Below are positions 23,095 through 31,809 of a stretch of DNA of 64,000 nucleotides, one piece after another. The notes beneath the pieces were generated by a model, which saw only the letters and a program-made list of their open reading frames with translations, had not been told where the DNA came from and searched no databases. The position numbers were made by a program, and so were the translations under genes. The stretch comes from Salinisphaera sp. LB1 (GTDB lineage Bacteria; Pseudomonadota; Gammaproteobacteria; Nevskiales; Salinisphaeraceae): positions 1,240,001 through 1,304,000 of the forward strand of contig NZ_CP029488.1 of assembly GCF_003177035.1 (NCBI RefSeq). The letters are read 5' to 3'. Each line of letters begins with the position of its first letter. The first letter of the stretch is position 1.

Positions 23095-23922
23095 ATGGCC
23101 GCGACCGACCGACAGCCCGCACCCGCCGGCCGCAGCCCGCGCCAGCGCGCGCGTCGACGCCGCGCGATCCAGTACATCGTCCTCGCGCTCATACTCGCCC
23201 TCGCCGCGTACATGGCCGACTGGCCGACGATCGGGCATACCTTCTTCGATCCGGCGCTGATTGTGAACACCGCCGTCCACGGTCTGTGGCGGGCGTTGTG
23301 GAACACGCTCGTCTACAGCGCCGGCGGTTTCGTGATCGGCCTGGCGGCCGGCACCCTGCTGGCGCTGATGCGCTTGTCCGAGGTCGCGCCCTATCGCTGG
23401 CTGGCGACGCTCTATATCGAGTTCTTCCGCGGGCTGCCGGCGCTGATCGTATTCATCGCGCTGTCGCTGCTGCCGCTGGCGTTCCAGGGACTGGCCATCC
23501 CGTTTTCACCCTACGGTACGGTCTGGGCGGCGCTGGGCATCGTCGGCAGCGCTTATATGGCCGAGACCATCCGCGCCGGTATTCTGGCCGTGCCCCGCGG
23601 CCAGATCGAGTCCGCCCGCTCGCTGGGCCTGACACCGGCGCAGACCCTGCGCCAGATCACCCTGCCACAGGCGTTCCGCCTGATGATTCCGCCCCTGACC
23701 AACGAACTGATCATGCTGATCAAGGATTCCTCGCTGGTGTTCATCGTCGGCCTGTCGGCGGCCGATTTCGATCTGACCAAGTTCGGCCGTGCCGCCGCGA
23801 ACAATCACGTCAACATCACGCCGTTGGTGGTGGCCGGCCTCGGCTATCTGATCATCACGCTGCCGCTGTCGCTACTGGTGCGACGCATGGAAGCACGCGC
23901 CGCGGCCGGGCGCCCGGCATGA
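23095..23922 (+). CDS. Amino-acid ABC transporter permease (HisMQ family)
   Basis: A 275-residue permease with about five membrane helices. The N-terminal tail is unusually basic ([15 protein letters not shown]). The HisM/GlnP hallmarks [18 protein letters not shown] and the EAA loop [20 protein letters not shown] are clear. Presence of only one permease suggests a homodimer. The stop TGA overlaps the ATG of the ATPase gene (ATGA), indicating translational coupling. Confidence 0.93.
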
Positions 23923-24662
23923 GCGCCGCCCTGGTGGAACTGGCCGGCGTGGCCAAGACCTTTGCCGGCAGACGCGTGCTCGACGATATCGATCTGGCGG
24001 TCGCGCGCGGCGAAGTGGTGTGCGTGATCGGGCCGTCGGGCTCGGGCAAGTCGACCCTGCTGCGCTGCGTGAACCGGCTGGAAACGCCGGACGCCGGGCG
24101 CGTCGTCGTCGCCGGTGTCGATCTCACCGATCCAGACTGCGATATCGACGCCGCCCGGCGCCAGATCGGCATGGTGTTTCAGCAGTTCAATCTGTTCGCC
24201 CATCGCAACGTGCTCGACAACTGCGCGCTGGCCCTGCGCACGGTGCTCGGCCTCAAGCGTGCGGATGCCGAGCGCAAGGCCCGGCAACAGCTCGAATGGG
24301 TCGGTCTGGCCGATCGCGCCACGGCCTATCCCAGCGAATTGTCGGGCGGCCAGCAACAGCGCGTGGCGATCGCCCGGGCACTGGCGATGGACCCGGCTCT
24401 GATGCTGTTCGACGAACCGACATCGGCGCTCGACCCCGAGCTGGTCGGCGATGTGCTGACGGTCATGCGGCGCCTCGCCGATGCCGGCACGACCATGATC
24501 GTGGTCACTCACGAAATGGGTTTCGCGCGCGAAGTCGCCGACCGGGTGGTGTTCATGGATGCCGGGCGCATCGTCGAACAGGGCGCCCCCGCACAAGTGC
24601 TCGGCCAGCCGCGCATCGAGCGTACCCGCGACTTTCTACAGCGGGTGTCGGTGTCGGGTTAG
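23919..24662 (+). CDS. Amino-acid ABC transporter ATP-binding protein (GlnQ/HisP type)
   Basis: A 247-residue ATPase with every motif intact: Walker [10 protein letters not shown] (38-46), Q-loop [11 protein letters not shown], signature LSGGQQQR (near 142), Walker [14 protein letters not shown] (near 162) and H-loop [15 protein letters not shown] (near 197). The [12 protein letters not shown] block is diagnostic of polar amino acid transporters. It completes the SBP-permease-ATPase operon. A structured repeat (24774-24951) follows and probably ends transcription. Confidence 0.95.
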
Positions 24663-24773
24663 GACCTGCCGGGTTCGTGCCGCCTTCACGCCACGGCCCG
24701 CCCCGGGCCGGCGTCGATGGTCCGCGGCCGCTGCCGCGGGCAACGCCAGGCGTCGGTTGGAACCGGCGCTATG

Positions 24774-24951
24774 AATCCGGCATCAAAACAGCTGACTTGA
24801 TCAGCTGTTTTCAACGCCTTCAAAAATAAAAGCCGGCGCCTGTCCGTCTTTTATTTTCAAAGGCTTCGCGGCCGATGGCCGCGGCGAGCATGCGGTCGCA
24901 TACGCGCGCTATTAACCCGAAAAATCATCTATTTTTGTGCCGGGTTAATAA
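24774..24951. repeat. 178-bp structured repeat, copy A
   Basis: This segment recurs at 30272-30449 with six substitutions and no gaps. It folds into four successive hairpins: AAAACAGCTGA/TCAGCTGTTTT (24785-24811); a long stem with AAAATAAAAG/CTTTTATTTT (24816-24864); CGCGGCC/GGCCGCG (24867-24883); and ATTAACCCG/CGGGTTAAT (24911-24949) with an inner AAAAAT/ATTTTT stem. It lies between convergent genes and ends inside the last codons of the leftward stress-protein gene. A-tracts and T-tracts round hairpins 1 and 2 would suit bidirectional termination. Confidence 0.92.
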
Positions 24952-25374
24952 GCCGCCGGCCGCACGACCAGAACCGAGTGCCGCGCATGCCGGACCATCC
25001 AGCCGGCGACGCTGCCCAGCAGCACATCGCTACGGCACGGGTTGTGCGAGGCCATCACGACCAGGTCGACCTCGTGGTCGTCGGCGGCATGCACGATCAT
25101 GCGGCCCGCCGAGCCAGTCAGCACATGGGCGCTCCAGGCGAATCGGGTGCCCAGCCGCGCCTGAGCCATACGATCCAGATGACGCTGGGCCTCGCCCGTG
25201 ATCTTGTGCATGTAACGGCGCTCGATCGAGGGGAAATAGCCCACCGACAGCCGCGGCAGCAAGAACGATGAACGTACTTCGTGCAGGCCCGCCTGTTCGA
25301 GCGCGGCCGCGAAGATATCGTCCAGGTCGGGCGTTTGTTCCGGATCGATCGGTAGCAGACTCTCTATGCGCCAT
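24945..25374 (-). CDS. Universal stress protein (UspA family), 5' end irregular
   Basis: The frame from about 25358 to the TAA at 24945 encodes a UspA-family domain: SLLPIDPEQTPDLDDIFAAA, then VDLVVMASHNPCRSDVLLGS and VVRHARHSVLVV-type ending RHARHSVLVVRPAAY. It parallels the stress protein at 26206-26703 almost block by block. No ATG, GTG or TTG lies in this frame before the conserved first strand; the nearest ATG (25374, with purine-rich upstream bases) is one frame off. A one-base indel near 25360-25372, a sequencing error or a non-standard start is needed. The stop codon and last codon come from the 178-bp repeat. Confidence 0.65.
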
Positions 25375-25428
25375 GATCGCCCCCGCTGATGGCCCTGCGT
25401 CCATCGTCACCGCGCGGCGGGCCCACGT

Positions 25429-25442
25429 TTGATCCGGATCAA
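25429..25442. promoter_or_regulatory. FNR/ANR box shared by the stress protein and pdxH genes
   Basis: TTGATCCGGATCAA matches the FNR/ANR consensus TTGAT-N4-ATCAA exactly and is fully palindromic. It is centred about 60 bp upstream of the leftward stress-protein start and about 65 bp upstream of the rightward pdxH start. Transcription from the usual -41.5 placement would leave leaders of about 20-25 bases on each side. Confidence 0.8.
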
Positions 25443-25500
25443 GACTGCCGCACCCGCGCCGGGCCATCATGCCATCACGGTACACGGCGGCAGATTCATC

Positions 25501-26094
25501 ATGCATACCGACGACAGCCTCGATCCGCTGGCAGATCTCGCTCGCGTGATCGAGCACGCCTACCAGGCCGGCGAGATCGAGCCGTTGGCCGCCACGCTGG
25601 CGACGGTGGATTCCGCTTTGAACCGCCCATCGGCGCGCACGGTCTACGTTCACCTGCTGCCCGACGGCGTCGCGTTCTTCGTCAACACGTTCAGCGGCAA
25701 GGGCCGGCAACTGCTCTGGAACCCCTACGCCGCGCTGTGTTTCTACTGGCGCAAGATCGAGCAGCAAACCGTCGTCGAGGGACGCTGCGAAGTGCTCGAT
25801 GAACCGACCGCCGACCTGCTATGGCGCAAACGCCCGCGCGAGAGCGCGCTGGTGGCCACGGCCCTGGACGCGATGTCGGACCCGACCGACGACGAGAATC
25901 TGGCCGAGCGGATCGCCAGCACCCGGCAGCATTACAGCTTCGAACACCCGCCACGGCCCGATCAGTGGCAGGGCTATCGTCTGCTCCCCGAACGCGTCGA
26001 ATTCTGGAGCGCGGGCTGGGACCGGGCGCGCTATCGTCAGGTCTATCAGCGGGAAAGCGGCGGCGGCTGGCAGGTCAGCCGCCAGCCGCCGTAA
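25501..26094 (+). CDS. Pyridoxamine 5'-phosphate oxidase family protein (PdxH-like)
   Basis: A 197-residue FMN-dependent split-barrel protein. Matching PdxH blocks are VAFFVNTFSGKGRQLLWNPY, ALCFYWRKIEQQTVVEG and LWRKRPRESALVATA; the C-terminus WQVSRQPP stands where PdxH ends in RLAP. It is expected to oxidise pyridoxine or pyridoxamine phosphate to PLP in the cytoplasm. The pyridoxal reductase at 17309 would act in the same salvage route. ATG 25501 is chosen over an upstream in-frame ATA-region start because the extra residues would cover the FNR box. The divergence in the N-terminal strand and tail leaves some doubt over substrate. Confidence 0.82.
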   Translation: MHTDDSLDPLADLARVIEHAYQAGEIEPLAATLATVDSALNRPSARTVYVHLLPDGVAFFVNTFSGKGRQLLWNPYAALCFYWRKIEQQTVVEGRCEVLDEPTADLLWRKRPRESALVATALDAMSDPTDDENLAERIASTRQHYSFEHPPRPDQWQGYRLLPERVEFWSAGWDRARYRQVYQRESGGGWQVSRQPP

Positions 26095-26205
26095 CCGATA
26101 CCGTCGCCCGCCTCCCGCGGGCAGACCCGTGCCGAACGGCAGGCAGGGTACGGCGGCAAAAATCGAGCGTGGCATCCGGCACAGGCGGCCCGGGCGCCGG
26201 ACGTC

Positions 26206-26703
26206 TCAGCCAGCCGACGAGCTGGCGGTATCGTGCTCGGTTTTCGCCCCTTTCGACGCAGCCTCTTCGACCTCGTTGGCTTGCCGGACCACCAGCACCG
26301 AATGCCGTGCGTGCTTGACCACCTGGGCAGCGGTGCTGCCCAGGAACACGTCCCAGACCACCGGGTTGTGCGAGGCCAGGATGATCAGATCGGCCTCGAG
26401 CCGGTCGGCGGCTCGCACGATCGTCCGGGCGACCGGCCCGAGCTCAACTTCGATGCGCCAGTCGCAGCGGTCGCCCAGCCGTTCCTCGCCGATCCGGGTG
26501 AGCTCCTTGCGGGCATGCCGGGTATAACGCGCCACGTAATCGGAATCCATGTACGGATAGGCGGTGGCGTAATGCCCGAGCTCCACGTTGAGCAACACCA
26601 CCGTGGCCGGCTCGATGCGAACCTGGCGACCGACGGCTTCGAACACGCGGTCGAGTACCGCGGGTTGGTGGAGATCCAGTGGCACGAGTATCGTTTGCGA
26701 CAT
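26206..26703 (-). CDS. Universal stress protein (UspA family)
   Basis: A 165-residue single-domain stress protein starting MSQTILVPLDLHQPAVLDRV. The nucleotide-binding strand-loop is seen as DLIILASHNPVVWDVFLGST and the C-terminal strand as VVKHARHSVLVVRQ. An acidic, low-complexity tail of about 25 residues follows, which its neighbour lacks. An exact FNR/ANR box lies 66 bp upstream, so expression under low oxygen is likely; ANR-controlled Usp genes are known in Pseudomonas. An upstream GTG in the same frame (26766) would add an unrelated leader. Confidence 0.9.
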   Translation of the reverse strand: MSQTILVPLDLHQPAVLDRVFEAVGRQVRIEPATVVLLNVELGHYATAYPYMDSDYVARYTRHARKELTRIGEERLGDRCDWRIEVELGPVARTIVRAADRLEADLIILASHNPVVWDVFLGSTAAQVVKHARHSVLVVRQANEVEEAASKGAKTEHDTASSSAG

Positions 26704-26768
26704 GATGAGCACCTCGATCAGTGGGCGAAAGCGAGTGCCCAGTGTCGGCGTTCGACGGCGACGCACGA

Positions 26769-26782
26769 TTGATCCGGATCAA
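26769..26782. promoter_or_regulatory. FNR/ANR box upstream of the second stress protein gene
   Basis: TTGATCCGGATCAA is identical, including its central CCGG, to the box at 25429-25442. It is centred about 73 bp from the stress-protein ATG on the minus strand. It lies about 265 bp upstream of mprF on the plus strand, too far for ordinary class II activation there. Confidence 0.8.
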
Positions 26783-27041
26783 CCCCGGCGCACCGGTGCG
26801 CGATACCGCGGGCCCGTTTCACGGCGACATGTCGCCGCCCACTGCGGTCGCGCTCCCCGCGCCCGACCTGAACCGGCGTGCTGATCGCGTCGCCTTTGGC
26901 TTTACAAAAATTTTCGAGGGCACGCGCCGCATCCGCGTTCAGGCAAAACGGCCACCGGCATCAAACGACAATCGGGGGCATGTACGATGCGCGCACACGC
27001 TAGGCCCTTGCGCCTGGCCACGGCTCCCCCGGGAAGACGTC

Positions 27042-29630
27042 ATGTCCGATACCTCAGTCGACCGCTGTTCCACCGCGGCACGCCTGCGCCGGTTCGCACC
27101 GCTGCTGCTGATCGCGGTCGTTGCCGCGCTGCTGCTGGTCGAATCGAGACATGTGAACCTGGCCGCGATCCAGCATGCGCTGGCCAGCGTGCCACCGACC
27201 CTGCTCGGGGTACTGGGCCTCGGCGGGCTGTTTGCGATCGCGGTCATGTCGAGCTATGACGTGCTGGCGGCCCGCTTCATCGGGCTCGACCGACGCGTGG
27301 CCACCAGTCTGCGCCTGGGCATGCTGGCCAACGGCATCAACAACATCGCGAGCCTGTCGGGCATCACCGGTTCCGGGCTGCGAGTGTTGCTGCTCACGCG
27401 CGACGGCGCGGCCACCGCGGCCGCCGTGCGCTACGCGGCGCTGGTAGCCAGCGCTTCGCCATTGGGTTTGTCGGCGCTGGCCTGGGTGACTCTGATCGTG
27501 CGTCCGGCGATCCTGGCGGCCACGCCGGTCCCGGAGCTGCTGGTCCTGATCGCGCTCGGCGTCATCGCACTCTATCTGCCGGCGTATTTCGCGCTCGCTA
27601 CGACATCGCTGCTGCGCATCGGCCCGCTGCAGGCGATCGAACGCATCCGCCCCTGGCAGGCCGCCGTTTTCATGGCGGCCTCGGTGATCGACTGGGCGAT
27701 CGCCGGCGCGTTGCTGTGGGGCTGTCTGGCGGTACTCGGCGCCGACGTGTCGCCGGCCGCCGTGATCGCCGCCTTCGCGCTGGCGGCCACGCTCGGCATG
27801 CTCAGTTTCCTGCCCGGCGGGCTCGGCGTATTCGACGTCACGCTGGTGGCGCTTCTGGCCGCGCACGACGTCAATGCGGCCACCGCGGTGGCCGCGCTCG
27901 TGCTCTACCGTGTGGCTTATTATCTGGTGCCGCTCATCGTGGCGCTGGCACTCGGCGCCAATGAACTGCGCTCGACCCGGATGGCCGAAACGGTCCGCAC
28001 GCATCCGGCGATCCAGCTCATGGCCTGGCCGGTCGGACGCGTGGTCGATCTGGGGATTCGCGTGCTCGCCTGGTTGACCGCCGCCTGCGGCGTGGTACTG
28101 CTGGCCGGCGCGGCGTTCCCCAACCTGATCGCCCACACGCGCCTGCTGCACGCCTGGTTGCCGCTGGGCGCGGTCGAGGCCAGCCACATGGCGAGCGTGG
28201 CGGTGGGCCTGACACTGGTGTTTGCGGCCCGCGGCCTGTCGCTGCGGTTGACACGCGCGCTCTGGCTGGCGCTCGGTCTGCTCATCGCGGGCGCGGCGTT
28301 CGGCCTGCTGCGCGGCCTGGACTGGGGTACGAGCCTGATGCTGACGGCAGTGGCCGGCGTGCTCTGGCTCAATCGTGCCTCGTTCGACCGCCGCGGCAGC
28401 CTGGCCCGCCAACTCGGCGAATGGCAGTGGCTCGCCACGCTCGCGGCTGCGCTCGCCGTCTATTTCATTATCGGCCAGGCGTTTTACCCGGCGCACGGCG
28501 CCAGCGTCTTTCACTTCAATTTCGGCGCGCATGGACCGCGTTTCCTGCGCGGGCTGATGATCGCGCTGATCAGCGTGATTGTGCTCATGGCCTGGAGCTG
28601 GCCGCGCTGGCCGCGTCCCGAGCTGAAACTGCCGACGGCGAGCGACCTGGATGCCCTGATCGAGTGGCTCGGTCGGCATGGCTCCAACGGCTATTCCCAT
28701 CTCATGCTGCTGGGCGACAAGACGCTGCGCTACAGCGCCGGCGACCGGGCCATGATCGGCTTCGCCGCCATTCGCAACCGCCTGGTCGCCCTCGGCGATC
28801 CCGTCGGCGATAGCGAGGCGCGCCGCGCCGCGATCGCCGATTTCCGGCGTTTCGCCGAAGCCGCGCATTGCACACCAGTGTTTTACCAGGTCGGCCCCGA
28901 TTATCTGTCGGACTATCTGGACCACGGCTTCGCCCTGTTCAAGCTGGGCGAAATCGGGCGCGTCGATCTGGTCAATTTTTCGATGAAGGGGCGGGTCAAC
29001 GAAGACAAGCGAGGCGCGATCAACCGCGGCAATCGGCTGGGTCTGACCTTCGAGATGCGCGAGCCGCCGTTCGATGGCGGGTTGATGGGCGAGCTACGCG
29101 TCGTGTCGGATGATTGGCTCGGCGAAAAGCCCGCGGAAAAAGCCTTCTCGCTGGGTCGTTTCGATGAGCGCTACATCCAGCGTGCGCCGGTGGCGCTGGT
29201 GCGCGATGCCGATGGCGTGCTGGTCGCATTCGCCAGCATTCTGCCAAGCTACGGGCATCGCGAGGAATTCTCGATCGACCTGATGCGTCATCTTGAGCGC
29301 GCGCCCGGCGGCACCATGGATTTCCTGTTCGTGCGCCTGATGCAGGAGGCACAGGCCATGGGCTACCACTGGTTCAATCTCGGCATGGCGCCGCTGGCGG
29401 GCGTGGGCGACACGCCGTGGGCCAACACCGCCGAACAGCTCGCCCGCCTTGCCTTCGAGCACGGCAACCGCTTCTACAACTACAAGGGGCTGCGCGCATT
29501 CAAGGAAAAATGGCACCCGGCCTGGCAATCGATGTATCTGGCTTACCCGCCGGAGGCCGGCCTGTCCGCGCTACAGCTCGATCTCGCCGCCCTGGTGGCC
29601 GGCGGCTACCGCCATATCATCGGGCGCTGA
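27042..29630 (+). CDS. mprF: MprF-type aminoacyl-phosphatidylglycerol synthase/flippase
   Basis: An 862-residue bifunctional membrane protein. Residues 1 to about 515 hold some fourteen membrane helices, with the flippase block [20 protein letters not shown] and the [10 protein letters not shown] motif. A soluble DUF2156 synthase domain follows (about 530-845), including [61 protein letters not shown] and [17 protein letters not shown]. It moves Lys or Ala from tRNA to phosphatidylglycerol, lowering envelope charge and raising resistance to cationic peptides and acid. Full-length family size is about 840-880. Start at ATG 27042 follows GGGAAGACGTC. Confidence 0.93.
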
Positions 29631-29637
29631 GCGGCTC

Positions 29638-30225
29638 GTGCCGACCCGGTCCCAAACCGCCCCGCGGCGAAAACGCCCGCGCCCGTCGGCACCGACGCGC
29701 CTGATTGGGCTCAACAAACCGTTCGACGTGCTGTCCCAGTTCACCGACGATGCCGGCCGCACGACACTGGCCGATTATGTCGATGTGCCGGGCGTCTACC
29801 CGGCCGGCCGGCTGGATCGCGACAGCGAGGGGCTGTTACTGCTGACCAACAACGGCAAGCTCAACGCGAAGATCACCCAGCCGCAACGCGGGATGCCCAA
29901 GACTTACTGGGCGCAGGTGGAAGGCATGCCGGACGCGCACCAACTCGCCGCCCTGCGCGCCGGTCCGACGATCAAGGACGGCCCGACCGCGCCGGCCGAT
30001 GTCGTGTGCATGGACGAGCCCACGCTCTGGCCCCGCCAGCCGCCGGTGCGCTATCGCAAGACCGTGCCGACCCAATGGCTGGCGATCACCATCACCGAGG
30101 GCCGCAACCGCCAGGTCCGACGCATGACCGCCGCGGTCGATCTGCCCACGCTGCGCCTGGTACGCATCGCGATCGGCGGCTGGCACCTCGGCGACCTCAG
30201 GCCCGGCCAGTGGCGGGATTTCTAA
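29638..30225 (+). CDS. rluE: 23S rRNA pseudouridine synthase, RluE/RsuA family
   Basis: A 195-residue enzyme lacking the S4 domain, as in RluE. It opens with a basic tail, then [20 protein letters not shown]; the catalytic Asp is in [19 protein letters not shown]; the RNA-binding motif [16 protein letters not shown] ends the core. RluE modifies U2457 of 23S rRNA. Translation begins at GTG 29638, seven bases after the mprF stop, so the two are probably cotranscribed. Repeat copy B follows. Confidence 0.88.
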
Positions 30226-30271
30226 GGGTTATTGCCGTTTCACACGGCACCGCGCCGGCGGGCCTGTTATT

Positions 30272-30449
30272 AATCCGGCAACAAAACAGCTGACTTCATC
30301 AGCTGTTTTCAACGCCTTCAAAAATAAAAGCCGGCGCTTGTCCGTCTTTTATTTTCAAAGGCTTCGCGGCCAATGGCCGCGGCAAGCATGCGGTCGCATA
30401 CGCGCGCTATTAACCCGAAAAATCATCTATTTTTGTGTCGGGTTAATAA
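30272..30449. repeat. 178-bp structured repeat, copy B
   Basis: The same length as copy A (24774-24951), with six substitutions, all outside the predicted stems. It lies between the convergent rluE (+) and parA-like (-) genes. The hairpins of copy A are offset here by +5498. The fourth stem gains one base pair (ATTAACCCGA/TCGGGTTAAT). Confidence 0.92.
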
Positions 30450-30504: not shown

Positions 30505-31236
30505 CTAGTCCAGCGCGCGGTACAGCTCGGTGAACTGGGTGGCGGCGCGGCTGCGGGGCGCGAATGCGCGCACGGGCGCACGATGGGTGCCCATCTGTTC
30601 GACATGGCTGCTGTAATCGATGAATACATCGGGCGCCTGGGCCATGCTCTCCGGCGGTTGTTCGATCAGCTGTCGGTGCAGGCGGCGGCGGCGATCCGCC
30701 ATGGCAAAGAACGGCCGCACTCGGGTCTTGCCGACTTTCTTTTCCGCGATGTGCTCCAGCACCTCGTCCAGCGCCCGCAGCGACAGCGGCGTGGGGACGA
30801 CCGGCACGAGCACACGATCCGCGGCCCGCAGGATCGCCGTCGCCAGCGCGCCGATGCCCGGCGGGCAGTCGAGAATCAGCAGCGAGTAGGTCTCGGAAAA
30901 CGGTTCGATCAGCCGCTCCAGCACCTTGCGCGGGCTCTTGGCCGCATGGATCTCGGCGTCCCATTGGCGATAACCCCGATCGCCCGGCAATACCGACAGC
31001 CGCTCGTAGGCTGTGGGCTGTACGTAGCGACCCAGCGGCACACTGCCGGCCACGATCTTCTTGGCCGAGATGCCGGCCGGTTCGTCGATGCCGAAATACC
31101 AGCTCGCCGCGCCCTGGGGGTCGAGATCCCAGAGAAGCACATGGCGGCCGGCCGCGGCCGCCTCGTAAGCGAGGTTGACGGCGGCGGCCGTCTTGCCGAC
31201 ACCACCTTTCAGACTGTACAGCGCCCAGGTCTTCAT
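30505..31236 (-). CDS. ParA/MinD-family ATPase without a partner
   Basis: A 243-residue ATPase opening MKTWALYSLKGGVGKTAAAV, with the deviant Walker A KGGVGKT, switch I DLDPQGAASW and Walker B LLILDCPPGIG. PTPLSLRALDEV is the usual ParA dimer region. No parB or centromere-like repeat lies beside it. Such orphan ParAs position chemoreceptors, carboxysomes, flagella or plasmid-like elements, or are remnants. The C-terminal tail RAFAPRSRAATQFTELYRAL resembles chromosomal ParA orphans. Function is undefined. Confidence 0.85.
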   Translation of the reverse strand: MKTWALYSLKGGVGKTAAAVNLAYEAAAAGRHVLLWDLDPQGAASWYFGIDEPAGISAKKIVAGSVPLGRYVQPTAYERLSVLPGDRGYRQWDAEIHAAKSPRKVLERLIEPFSETYSLLILDCPPGIGALATAILRAADRVLVPVVPTPLSLRALDEVLEHIAEKKVGKTRVRPFFAMADRRRRLHRQLIEQPPESMAQAPDVFIDYSSHVEQMGTHRAPVRAFAPRSRAATQFTELYRALD

Positions 31237-31308
31237 GCGCCCAAGGTTACGACAAACGCATCGCGCGTGCATGCGTGGCAGCGAGCCAGCCCTTGCTATA
31301 TTGCCCCG

Positions 31309-31809
31309 ATGCGAATCGTCATCCTGGCCGACACCCACGGCTTTCTCGACCCGCGTATCGCCGAGTCCGCGGCGGGCGCGGCGCTGATCTGGCACGCCGG
31401 CGACGTCGGCGACGGCATCGCCGCCGAACTTGCGGCGCTCGCCGACGAGACGATCATCGTCTCCGGCAACAACGACCCGGCAGACGCCCCCTGGCCCGAG
31501 GCGGTGAGTCGCGATCTGCCGGGCGGGCGACTGGCGATGATGCACGGCCACCAATGGCCGGCGCGGACACGCCATCGCCGTCTGCGTGCCGAATTCCCCG
31601 ATGCGCGTGCGGTGGTCTGCGGCCACAGTCATCGTCGCGTGTTGGAAACCGGGGACACCCCCTGGCTGCTCAACCCCGGCGCGGCCGGCAAGAGCCGCGC
31701 CTACGGCGGGCCGGGCTATATCGAACTCATCGCCGAAGCTGGCGTCTGGCGTGTCGAACCGGTGGTGTTCGAGCCGCTTGCGGGCAGGCGGCGTACGCGA
31801 CAAGGCTAG
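31309..31809 (+). CDS. Metallophosphoesterase, YfcE/MJ0936 family
   Basis: A 166-residue calcineurin-like phosphodiesterase. The metal ligands appear in order: ILADTHG (DxH), WHAGDVGD, VSGNNDPAD, MMHGHQW and CGHSHRRVL. The length is typical for YfcE-like enzymes, which hydrolyse phosphodiesters such as bis-pNPP with Mn2+. The stop overlaps the stop of the convergent hydrolase gene by three bases. Confidence 0.88.
   Translation: MRIVILADTHGFLDPRIAESAAGAALIWHAGDVGDGIAAELAALADETIIVSGNNDPADAPWPEAVSRDLPGGRLAMMHGHQWPARTRHRRLRAEFPDARAVVCGHSHRRVLETGDTPWLLNPGAAGKSRAYGGPGYIELIAEAGVWRVEPVVFEPLAGRRRTRQG

Follow-up and report, generated by a model that had tools for sequence, protein, structure and literature searches.

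A hairpin-rich 181-bp repeat dispersed in Salinisphaera is very probably a miniature transposable element of the IS630/Tc1-mariner kind

Results and discussion

In a 64,000-nucleotide stretch of the chromosome of Salinisphaera sp. LB1 (the window; positions 1,240,001 to 1,304,000 of the single 4,141,708-base contig of this genome, which we call G000), a short sequence that folds into a chain of hairpins occurs twice, at window positions 24770 to 24950 and 30268 to 30448. We conclude that this repeat is very probably a non-autonomous transposable element, i.e., a miniature inverted-repeat transposable element (MITE), of the IS630/Tc1-mariner kind. An original prediction, made from the letters of the window, had described the two copies as a structured repeat that might be a mobile bidirectional terminator or an unnamed intergenic RNA family. 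Support for the mobile part of that proposal comes from repeats at both ends, flanking TAs, unoccupied target sites, and spread to many copies. The two copies are indeed nearly identical where they had been placed, matching at 172 of 178 positions, and the repeat is real, but its unit is 181 bp including the TA at both ends (rather than 178 bp), and over this full length the copies differ at 7 sites (element positions 4, 14, 30, 71, 105, 117, and 171) rather than six. The difference that had been missed, at 24773, lies in the left terminal repeat. The element can encode at most 60 codons and has no transposase gene. The possibility that no further copies exist is excluded, as a covariance model found 26 loci in G000: 19 full length, 5 partial, 1 interrupted by an IS630 element, and 1 interrupted by an insert of ~200 bp. 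(This search scored 150 candidates and gave 48 rows; those that do not count as loci comprise fragments, one end hairpin standing by itself, and self-matches in antisense.)

Terminal repeats, TA target, and empty sites

The element is bounded by terminal inverted repeats of the form TTAAYCCGGCA (left, TATTAATCCGGCA; right, TATTAACCCGGCA). TA is present at both ends in 17 of the 19 full-length G000 copies, and the target fits YTAR in 17 of 19. In the relative G001, 60 near-full-length copies were read; 52 have TA at both ends, 55 fit YTAR, and 34 are nested within another dispersed repeat, as judged by a pattern drawn once the sites had been seen. Ten of the first 20 G001 copies share one fixed TA within that repeat, with flanks reading ...GTGT-TA-element-TA-ACA.... 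A degenerate pattern for the same site without an element (GTGCGAAGTGTTAACAGGCCCTAG and variants) gave 29 matches in G001 with no more than 2 mismatches. Among these host repeat copies, the difference between an occupied and an empty site is the element plus one TA, as would be expected if insertion duplicates a TA target.

The hotspot repeat itself (CTAGGGCCTGTTAACACTTCGCAC...) is targeted at one fixed TA in G001 (e.g., L137, L195, and L200), and matches to its empty site are also found in genomes G006, G009, G011, and G012.

Hairpin structure across lineages and among copies

The fold of copy 1 is much more stable than that of shuffled versions of itself (z = -6.18 on the plus strand and -8.20 on the minus strand, with 0 of 200 shuffles as good), so that the strong fold first described stands, while the number of hairpins is five and not four. 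The claim that all differences between the copies fall outside stems does not hold, as 24886 (element position 117) is in the stem of the fourth hairpin, at 24884 to 24907. The change at 24940 (element position 171) does, as had been noted, give the last hairpin an additional A-T pair. Because both copies are from one genome, maintenance of the structure could not be demonstrated from them. We used a structural alignment of 35 of 58 copies, taken from the genus, with five helices and 50 pairs. Paired cells make up 92.1% of this alignment, a percentage that leans towards the structure, which was drawn from single-sequence folds. Cells with two-sided change number 87, compared with a shuffle mean of 29.7 and no more than 15 in slid controls, and the observed covariation score was reached by 0 of 500 shuffles. 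When lineage representatives were compared with one G000 copy, 45 of 94 changed pairs were two-sided Watson-Crick replacements (11 comparisons, which are not independent). These values support the view that the hairpin structure has been maintained across lineages. A consensus fold computed automatically from the 35 rows was dropped; it joined hairpins 2 and 3 by pairs and failed to recover hairpin 2, probably on account of gaps.

The same covariation could be mutational, if template switching within palindromes, a mechanism known in general, rewrites one arm to match the other with no selection for structure. The abundance of two-sided changes between lineages is what such a process would leave. 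However, when changes unique to one copy (singletons) were examined within genomes, only 1 of 56 stem singletons made a new Watson-Crick pair, whereas 36 of 56 broke a pair, which indicates that restoration is infrequent at short times. We therefore regard a purely mutational origin of the covariation as unlikely.

Whether stems are spared among the copies of one genome depends on which differences are counted. Over all differences among the 19 full-length G000 copies the sparing proposed at the outset is still seen, though more weakly than in the two window copies, both with the plus-strand fold (40 in 51 unpaired sites versus 55 in 130 stem sites) and in a second count (44 in 64 unpaired sites versus 34 in 84 stem sites). 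This higher variation at unpaired sites comes largely from variants common to several copies. Singletons, which are mostly later changes, hit stems and unpaired sites equally: 16 in 64 unpaired versus 19 in 84 stem sites in G000 (ratio, 0.90; interval, 0.47 to 1.76), 25 in 66 versus 37 in 81 in G001 (1.21; 0.73 to 2.00), and a pooled ratio of 1.08 (0.72 to 1.61). The ratio is 0.76 (0.39 to 1.49) when L017, which has degenerate ends, is left out. Selection on structure, as originally suggested, is thus supported by compensatory change across lineages but not on individual copies.

One-sided departures from pairing show no G-T excess. Between lineages there are 15 G-T and 17 A-C departures, and in helices 1 to 4 of the 58 copies there are 60 G-T and 52 A-C cells. 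Inclusion of helix 5 gives 70 G-T versus 95 A-C cells, 22 of the helix-5 A-C cells being in G001 copies. (The 58-row set omits 12 loci: the partial, interrupted, or repeat rows L020 to L026, L164, L165, and L038 and the near-identical L036 and L048.) Equal singletons in stems, together with this lack of G-T/A-C bias in helices 1 to 4, speak against selection acting on every copy and also against an RNA read from one strand. The near equality of G-T and A-C departures is why a one-strand RNA was set aside as the principal interpretation. If the repeat were a family of structured intergenic RNAs that serve the host and have been copied to many places, this would account for the strong fold, for the covariation across lineages, and for the conserved apical loop of hairpin 2, which has a mean identity of 0.89 (versus 0.50 to 0.58 for the other internal loops, those of hairpins 1, 3, and 4) and is a candidate protein site. 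On the other hand, the ends, TA flanks, and empty sites are marks of a transposon, the G-T excess expected of an RNA is absent, stem singletons are not depleted in the copies, no Rfam family exceeds its threshold in the 64-kb window (0 matches), and no promoter-like site was found in the three stretches scanned. We consider a host RNA family very improbable.

With a MITE, the hairpins would be kept because they help a source element propagate, whether through pairing of the ends, through hairpin extrusion in DNA, or through host tolerance of the sequence on either strand. Inserted copies would then decay freely, and the hairpins would not be kept for a service that each copy renders to the host. 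A more specific form of this idea, which we put forward tentatively, is that the hairpin chain is selected as DNA in the source element, for transposition or amplification, so that the arms co-evolve genus-wide while the copies decay freely, and that the ends are such that landing in a stop codon leaves a working one (see below).

IS630 as the candidate mover

G000 holds five IS630 copies, whose transposases (351 amino acids, PF13358) are 99 to 100% identical. Their ends are CTAAYCCGTTC (CTAATCCGTTC/CTAACCCGTTC) with TA flanks; the four copies in which both ends match are 1109 bp long, and the fifth has an altered base in the right end. The 181-bp element and the resident IS630 have in common a TAAYCCG core and a left-T/right-C asymmetry, while the inner bases differ, which suggests either cross-mobilization or a lost relative. 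Because the resident ends share this core and asymmetry, we propose that an IS630-type transposase would mobilize the element in trans; that the mover is of this type is something we infer, as the searches turned up no element whose ends match exactly.

The wider search for a mover covered the genus, the class, and plasmids. PF13358 is found in 5 of 14 genus genomes, and 64 of the 274 genomes of the class sample hold IS630 relatives, from which 30 loci were fetched and 17 scanned for ends. Three of the 17 are without a frame and five have candidate TA-flanked ends, one of these being the resident IS630. Among 1881 plasmid records, relatives of the resident transposase are present only at <60% identity. 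Of the five loci with candidate ends, L256 shows TTGATCCGGCC as a weak right end. As a separate observation, a complete 1109-bp IS630 sits at a TA within a copy of the repeat (L028/L125; G000 positions 1361854 to 1363146).

Stop codons and convergent siting

For the analysis of insertion sites, a single TA was put in place of each element, and genes were predicted by a purpose-written codon-usage script, which is cruder than a standard annotator. The figures rest on the 19 full-length G000 copies, since the 26-row listing of gene contexts counts one interrupted locus twice. Nine of the 19 copies sit precisely at the stop codon of a gene predicted in this way; by comparison, a 464-kb sample of G000 that includes the window has 577 non-coding YTAR sites, of which 56 are stop codons (P = 2.8e-5, or 7.3e-5 when 64 sites whose context is unreadable are excluded). 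This pattern, like the origin-proximal clustering described below, was spotted in and then tested on identical data. When the element end comes to follow the TA of a stop codon (TA plus TTAA), the old stop becomes TAT TAA, which lengthens the product by one residue and puts a new stop in the next codon. A C-terminal tyrosine, the residue expected from TAT TAA, is found in 8 of the 9 proteins; in the one exception, the element end is mutated. In all nine, the family match ends 3 to 22 residues before the C terminus and no more than 10 positions from the end of the profile, and because the matches run almost to the profile end, these C termini look natural. In two of them (L001 and L006), the N-terminal part of the profile is absent from the frame taken.

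The neighboring genes are convergent at 13 of the 19 full-length G000 copies, co-directional at 5, and divergent at 1, and no copy is inside a gene; the background is 112 convergent of the 577 sites (P = 4.6e-6; with 513 sites, P = 1.8e-5). Convergent siting is also raised in G001 (29 of 54 copies with readable context; P = 2e-8 against the G000 background), where 5 of 60 copies are in stop codons. In the other species, 19 copies are divided among 4 convergent, 5 divergent, and 9 co-directional sites and 1 site inside a gene, with 4 of 19 in stop codons. The placement between convergent genes that was predicted from the window is therefore a property of G000 and G001 but not of the other species read. 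Such siting would result from insertion into stop codons together with the loss of harmful insertions.

These data also bear on whether the element is a mobile bidirectional terminator selected to protect convergent genes. The convergent excess in G000 and G001 is what this would predict, A and T tracts flank the stems on both strands, the lack of strand bias fits a function in two directions, and at L004 the element end supplies the T-rich tail of a hairpin that lies immediately beyond the left end. Nevertheless, a hairpin followed by a T run, i.e., a canonical terminator, is absent from the inside of the element in all three stretches scanned, contrary to the original proposal, and stems are not kept in the copies, while siting is mixed in other species. 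In addition, as described in PMC3049150, the pneumococcal repeats RUP, BOX, and SPRITE and insertion sequences are also overrepresented between convergent genes, which the authors of that study read as tolerance of mobile elements. Selection as a terminator is in our judgment quite unlikely.

Several points weigh against interpreting the repeat as a MITE, or against parts of that interpretation. Movement is deduced from sequence comparison. The TA target duplication is indicated mainly by nested copies in one relative, for which repeat copies rather than strains were compared. No autonomous element with TTAAYCCGGCA ends was found in a search across the genus, and none of the five IS630 loci with readable ends carries them. 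Two measures of covariation are weak, namely, the number of pairs with two-sided change (15 versus 10.9, reached by 11 of 500 shuffles) and the number of further pair types (51 versus 47.0, reached by 34 of 500 shuffles), and template switching within palindromes might be responsible for part of the compensatory change. The intervals around the singleton ratios are wide, and singletons are too young for two-sided changes to have accumulated. Finally, the share of copies in stop codons is not raised above the G000 background in G001 (P = 0.70), nor clearly so in the other species (P = 0.11), and the stop-codon bias is shown for G000 only.

Relation to known repeats

TA-inserting, IS630-related short repeats with stem-loops are already well described, in the form of RUP (PMC3049150 and PMC2229807) and MITEPlu5 (PMC6267812), and a convergent-gene excess and repeats that supply stop codons have been published for pneumococcal repeats (PMC3049150); the comparisons that follow are with these systems as described in the papers. 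RUP is of similar size class (~100 to 200 bp), with terminal inverted repeats, a TA target, and ends like those of a resident IS630; it inserts into other mobile elements and is overrepresented between convergent genes (PMC3049150 and PMC2229807). By description, however, RUP is 107 bp with a tight fold in which the ends are paired, whereas the Salinisphaera element is 181 bp long, forms several separate hairpins in a row, and has a GC-rich host. MITEPlu5 of Photorhabdus is likewise a short IS630-related MITE with a terminal TA duplication and a predicted secondary structure, but it is 123 bp long with 467 complete copies, again as judged by description (PMC6267812). BOX encodes the stop codon of a neighboring gene in 36 cases but has a modular A/B/C build and ends likened to ISSpn2 rather than to IS630 (PMC3049150). 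Correia/NEMIS and ERIC elements have TA termini, terminal inverted repeats, and stem-loop transcripts (PMC2229807 and PMC2759123), but they occur in other hosts and are likewise compared by description.

A literature search for miniature inverted or interspersed repeats of Salinisphaera found none, subscription journals being mostly outside its coverage. We conclude that the element is a new family of an already known sort, that of RUP, MITEPlu5, and BOX, from which it is set apart by their descriptions. What it documents is the contrast between covariation over relatives, which reflects the propagating lineage, and constraint on individual copies, of which none was detected. Structured intergenic repeats can thus resemble RNA genes in covariance scans without having a host function. 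The element also presents a clear case of mobile DNA whose insertion into a stop codon can leave the gene with a functional stop.

The two copies in the window

Both window copies lie between convergent genes, as originally stated, and both are on the plus strand; the hairpins are given without a strand. Copy 1 (24770 to 24950, 181 bp, matching the covariance model at 216 bits) begins with the left TA and terminal inverted repeat at 24770 to 24782 on the plus strand (TATGAATCCGGCA), which departs from the family form at 24773. Hairpin 1 (24785 to 24811) has the arms AAAACAGCTGA and TCAGCTGTTTT, hairpin 2 (24816 to 24864) has the conserved apical loop CCGGCGCCTGTCCGT, and hairpin 3 (24867 to 24883) has the arms CGCGGCC and GGCCGCG. 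The small hairpin 4, whose stem includes 24886, is the one omitted from the original prediction. In the right-end hairpin (24910 to 24950), the right terminal repeat is paired with an inner copy of the terminal repeat; the right terminal inverted repeat with its TA occupies 24938 to 24950 on the minus strand and has the sequence TATTAACCCGGCA. Copy 2 (30268 to 30448, 181 bp, 210.4 bits) has the family form TATTAATCCGGCA as its left TA and terminal inverted repeat at 30268 to 30280 on the plus strand. Its hairpins 1 to 4 span 30283 to 30405 (30283 to 30309, 30314 to 30362, 30365 to 30381, and 30382 to 30405) and its right-end hairpin is at 30408 to 30448. The right terminal inverted repeat and TA of this copy, at 30436 to 30448 on the minus strand, read TATTAACCCGACA, with one change.

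To the left of copy 1 is an ABC transporter ATPase gene (23919 to 24662, plus strand) and to its right is an open reading frame (ORF) with a Usp domain (24945 to 25262, minus strand), the stop of which is inside the element. This TAA stop, at 24945 to 24947 on the minus strand, comes from the element end (TAT TAA), and the stop at the original target would have been TAG. Copy 2 is between an RNA pseudouridylate synthase gene (29449 to 30225, plus strand) and a gene for an AAA_31/ParA-like ATPase (30505 to 31803, minus strand). The Usp-like ORF covers the 144-position UspF profile only at positions 49 to 144, with a score under the model cutoff; the N-terminal third is absent from the frame, and the gene may be truncated or frameshifted.

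Distribution and variant forms

Matches to the element are present in 13 of 14 Salinisphaera genomes. In the class sample, for which stricter filters were used, 3 of 274 genomes match, and these are two Salinisphaera members and one genome with a 39-bp end hairpin. No match to the element was found in the plasmid records. A hairpin-1 pattern matched 41 stretches in a species collection, 33 of them from Salinisphaera; when the other 8 were compared with the covariance model, 4 aligned over hairpin 1 only, 1 gave a weak whole-model alignment (L094, 103 bp, 20 bits), and 3 gave nothing. Among the collections searched, the full element was found only in Salinisphaera. The 39-bp end-type hairpin (TTAACCCGG...CCGGGTTAATA) is at L213 in G250, a genome from another family of the class, and the same distant genome holds an IS630 fragment.

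The 19 full-length G000 copies span positions 353794 to 2506048 and are clustered in the origin-proximal part of the chromosome. The origin is indicated by dnaA at 1,453,456 and by the GC skew of sampled stretches, which flips between 1.42 and 1.56 Mb, and the origin-nearer half holds 17 of the 19 copies (Kolmogorov-Smirnov P = 2.4e-4, for a pattern noticed after the fact).

Some G000 loci are reduced or altered forms of the element. Variants without hairpin 2, at 1134688 to 1134823 and 3387994 to 3388116, suggest that single hairpin modules can be lost. Solo 40-bp palindromes made of the two ends only (TATTAACCCGGCATGAAGGTATTTTCATGCCGGATTAATA and a variant), with TA at both ends, are found at 742691 to 742730 (L055/L120) and at 307200 to 307239 (L121) and are possible minimal elements. 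At L024 (1218949 to 1219334), a copy is split by the ~200-bp insert, which has the ends GGGTGTAGACAAA/TTTGTCTACACCC and is possibly another miniature element.

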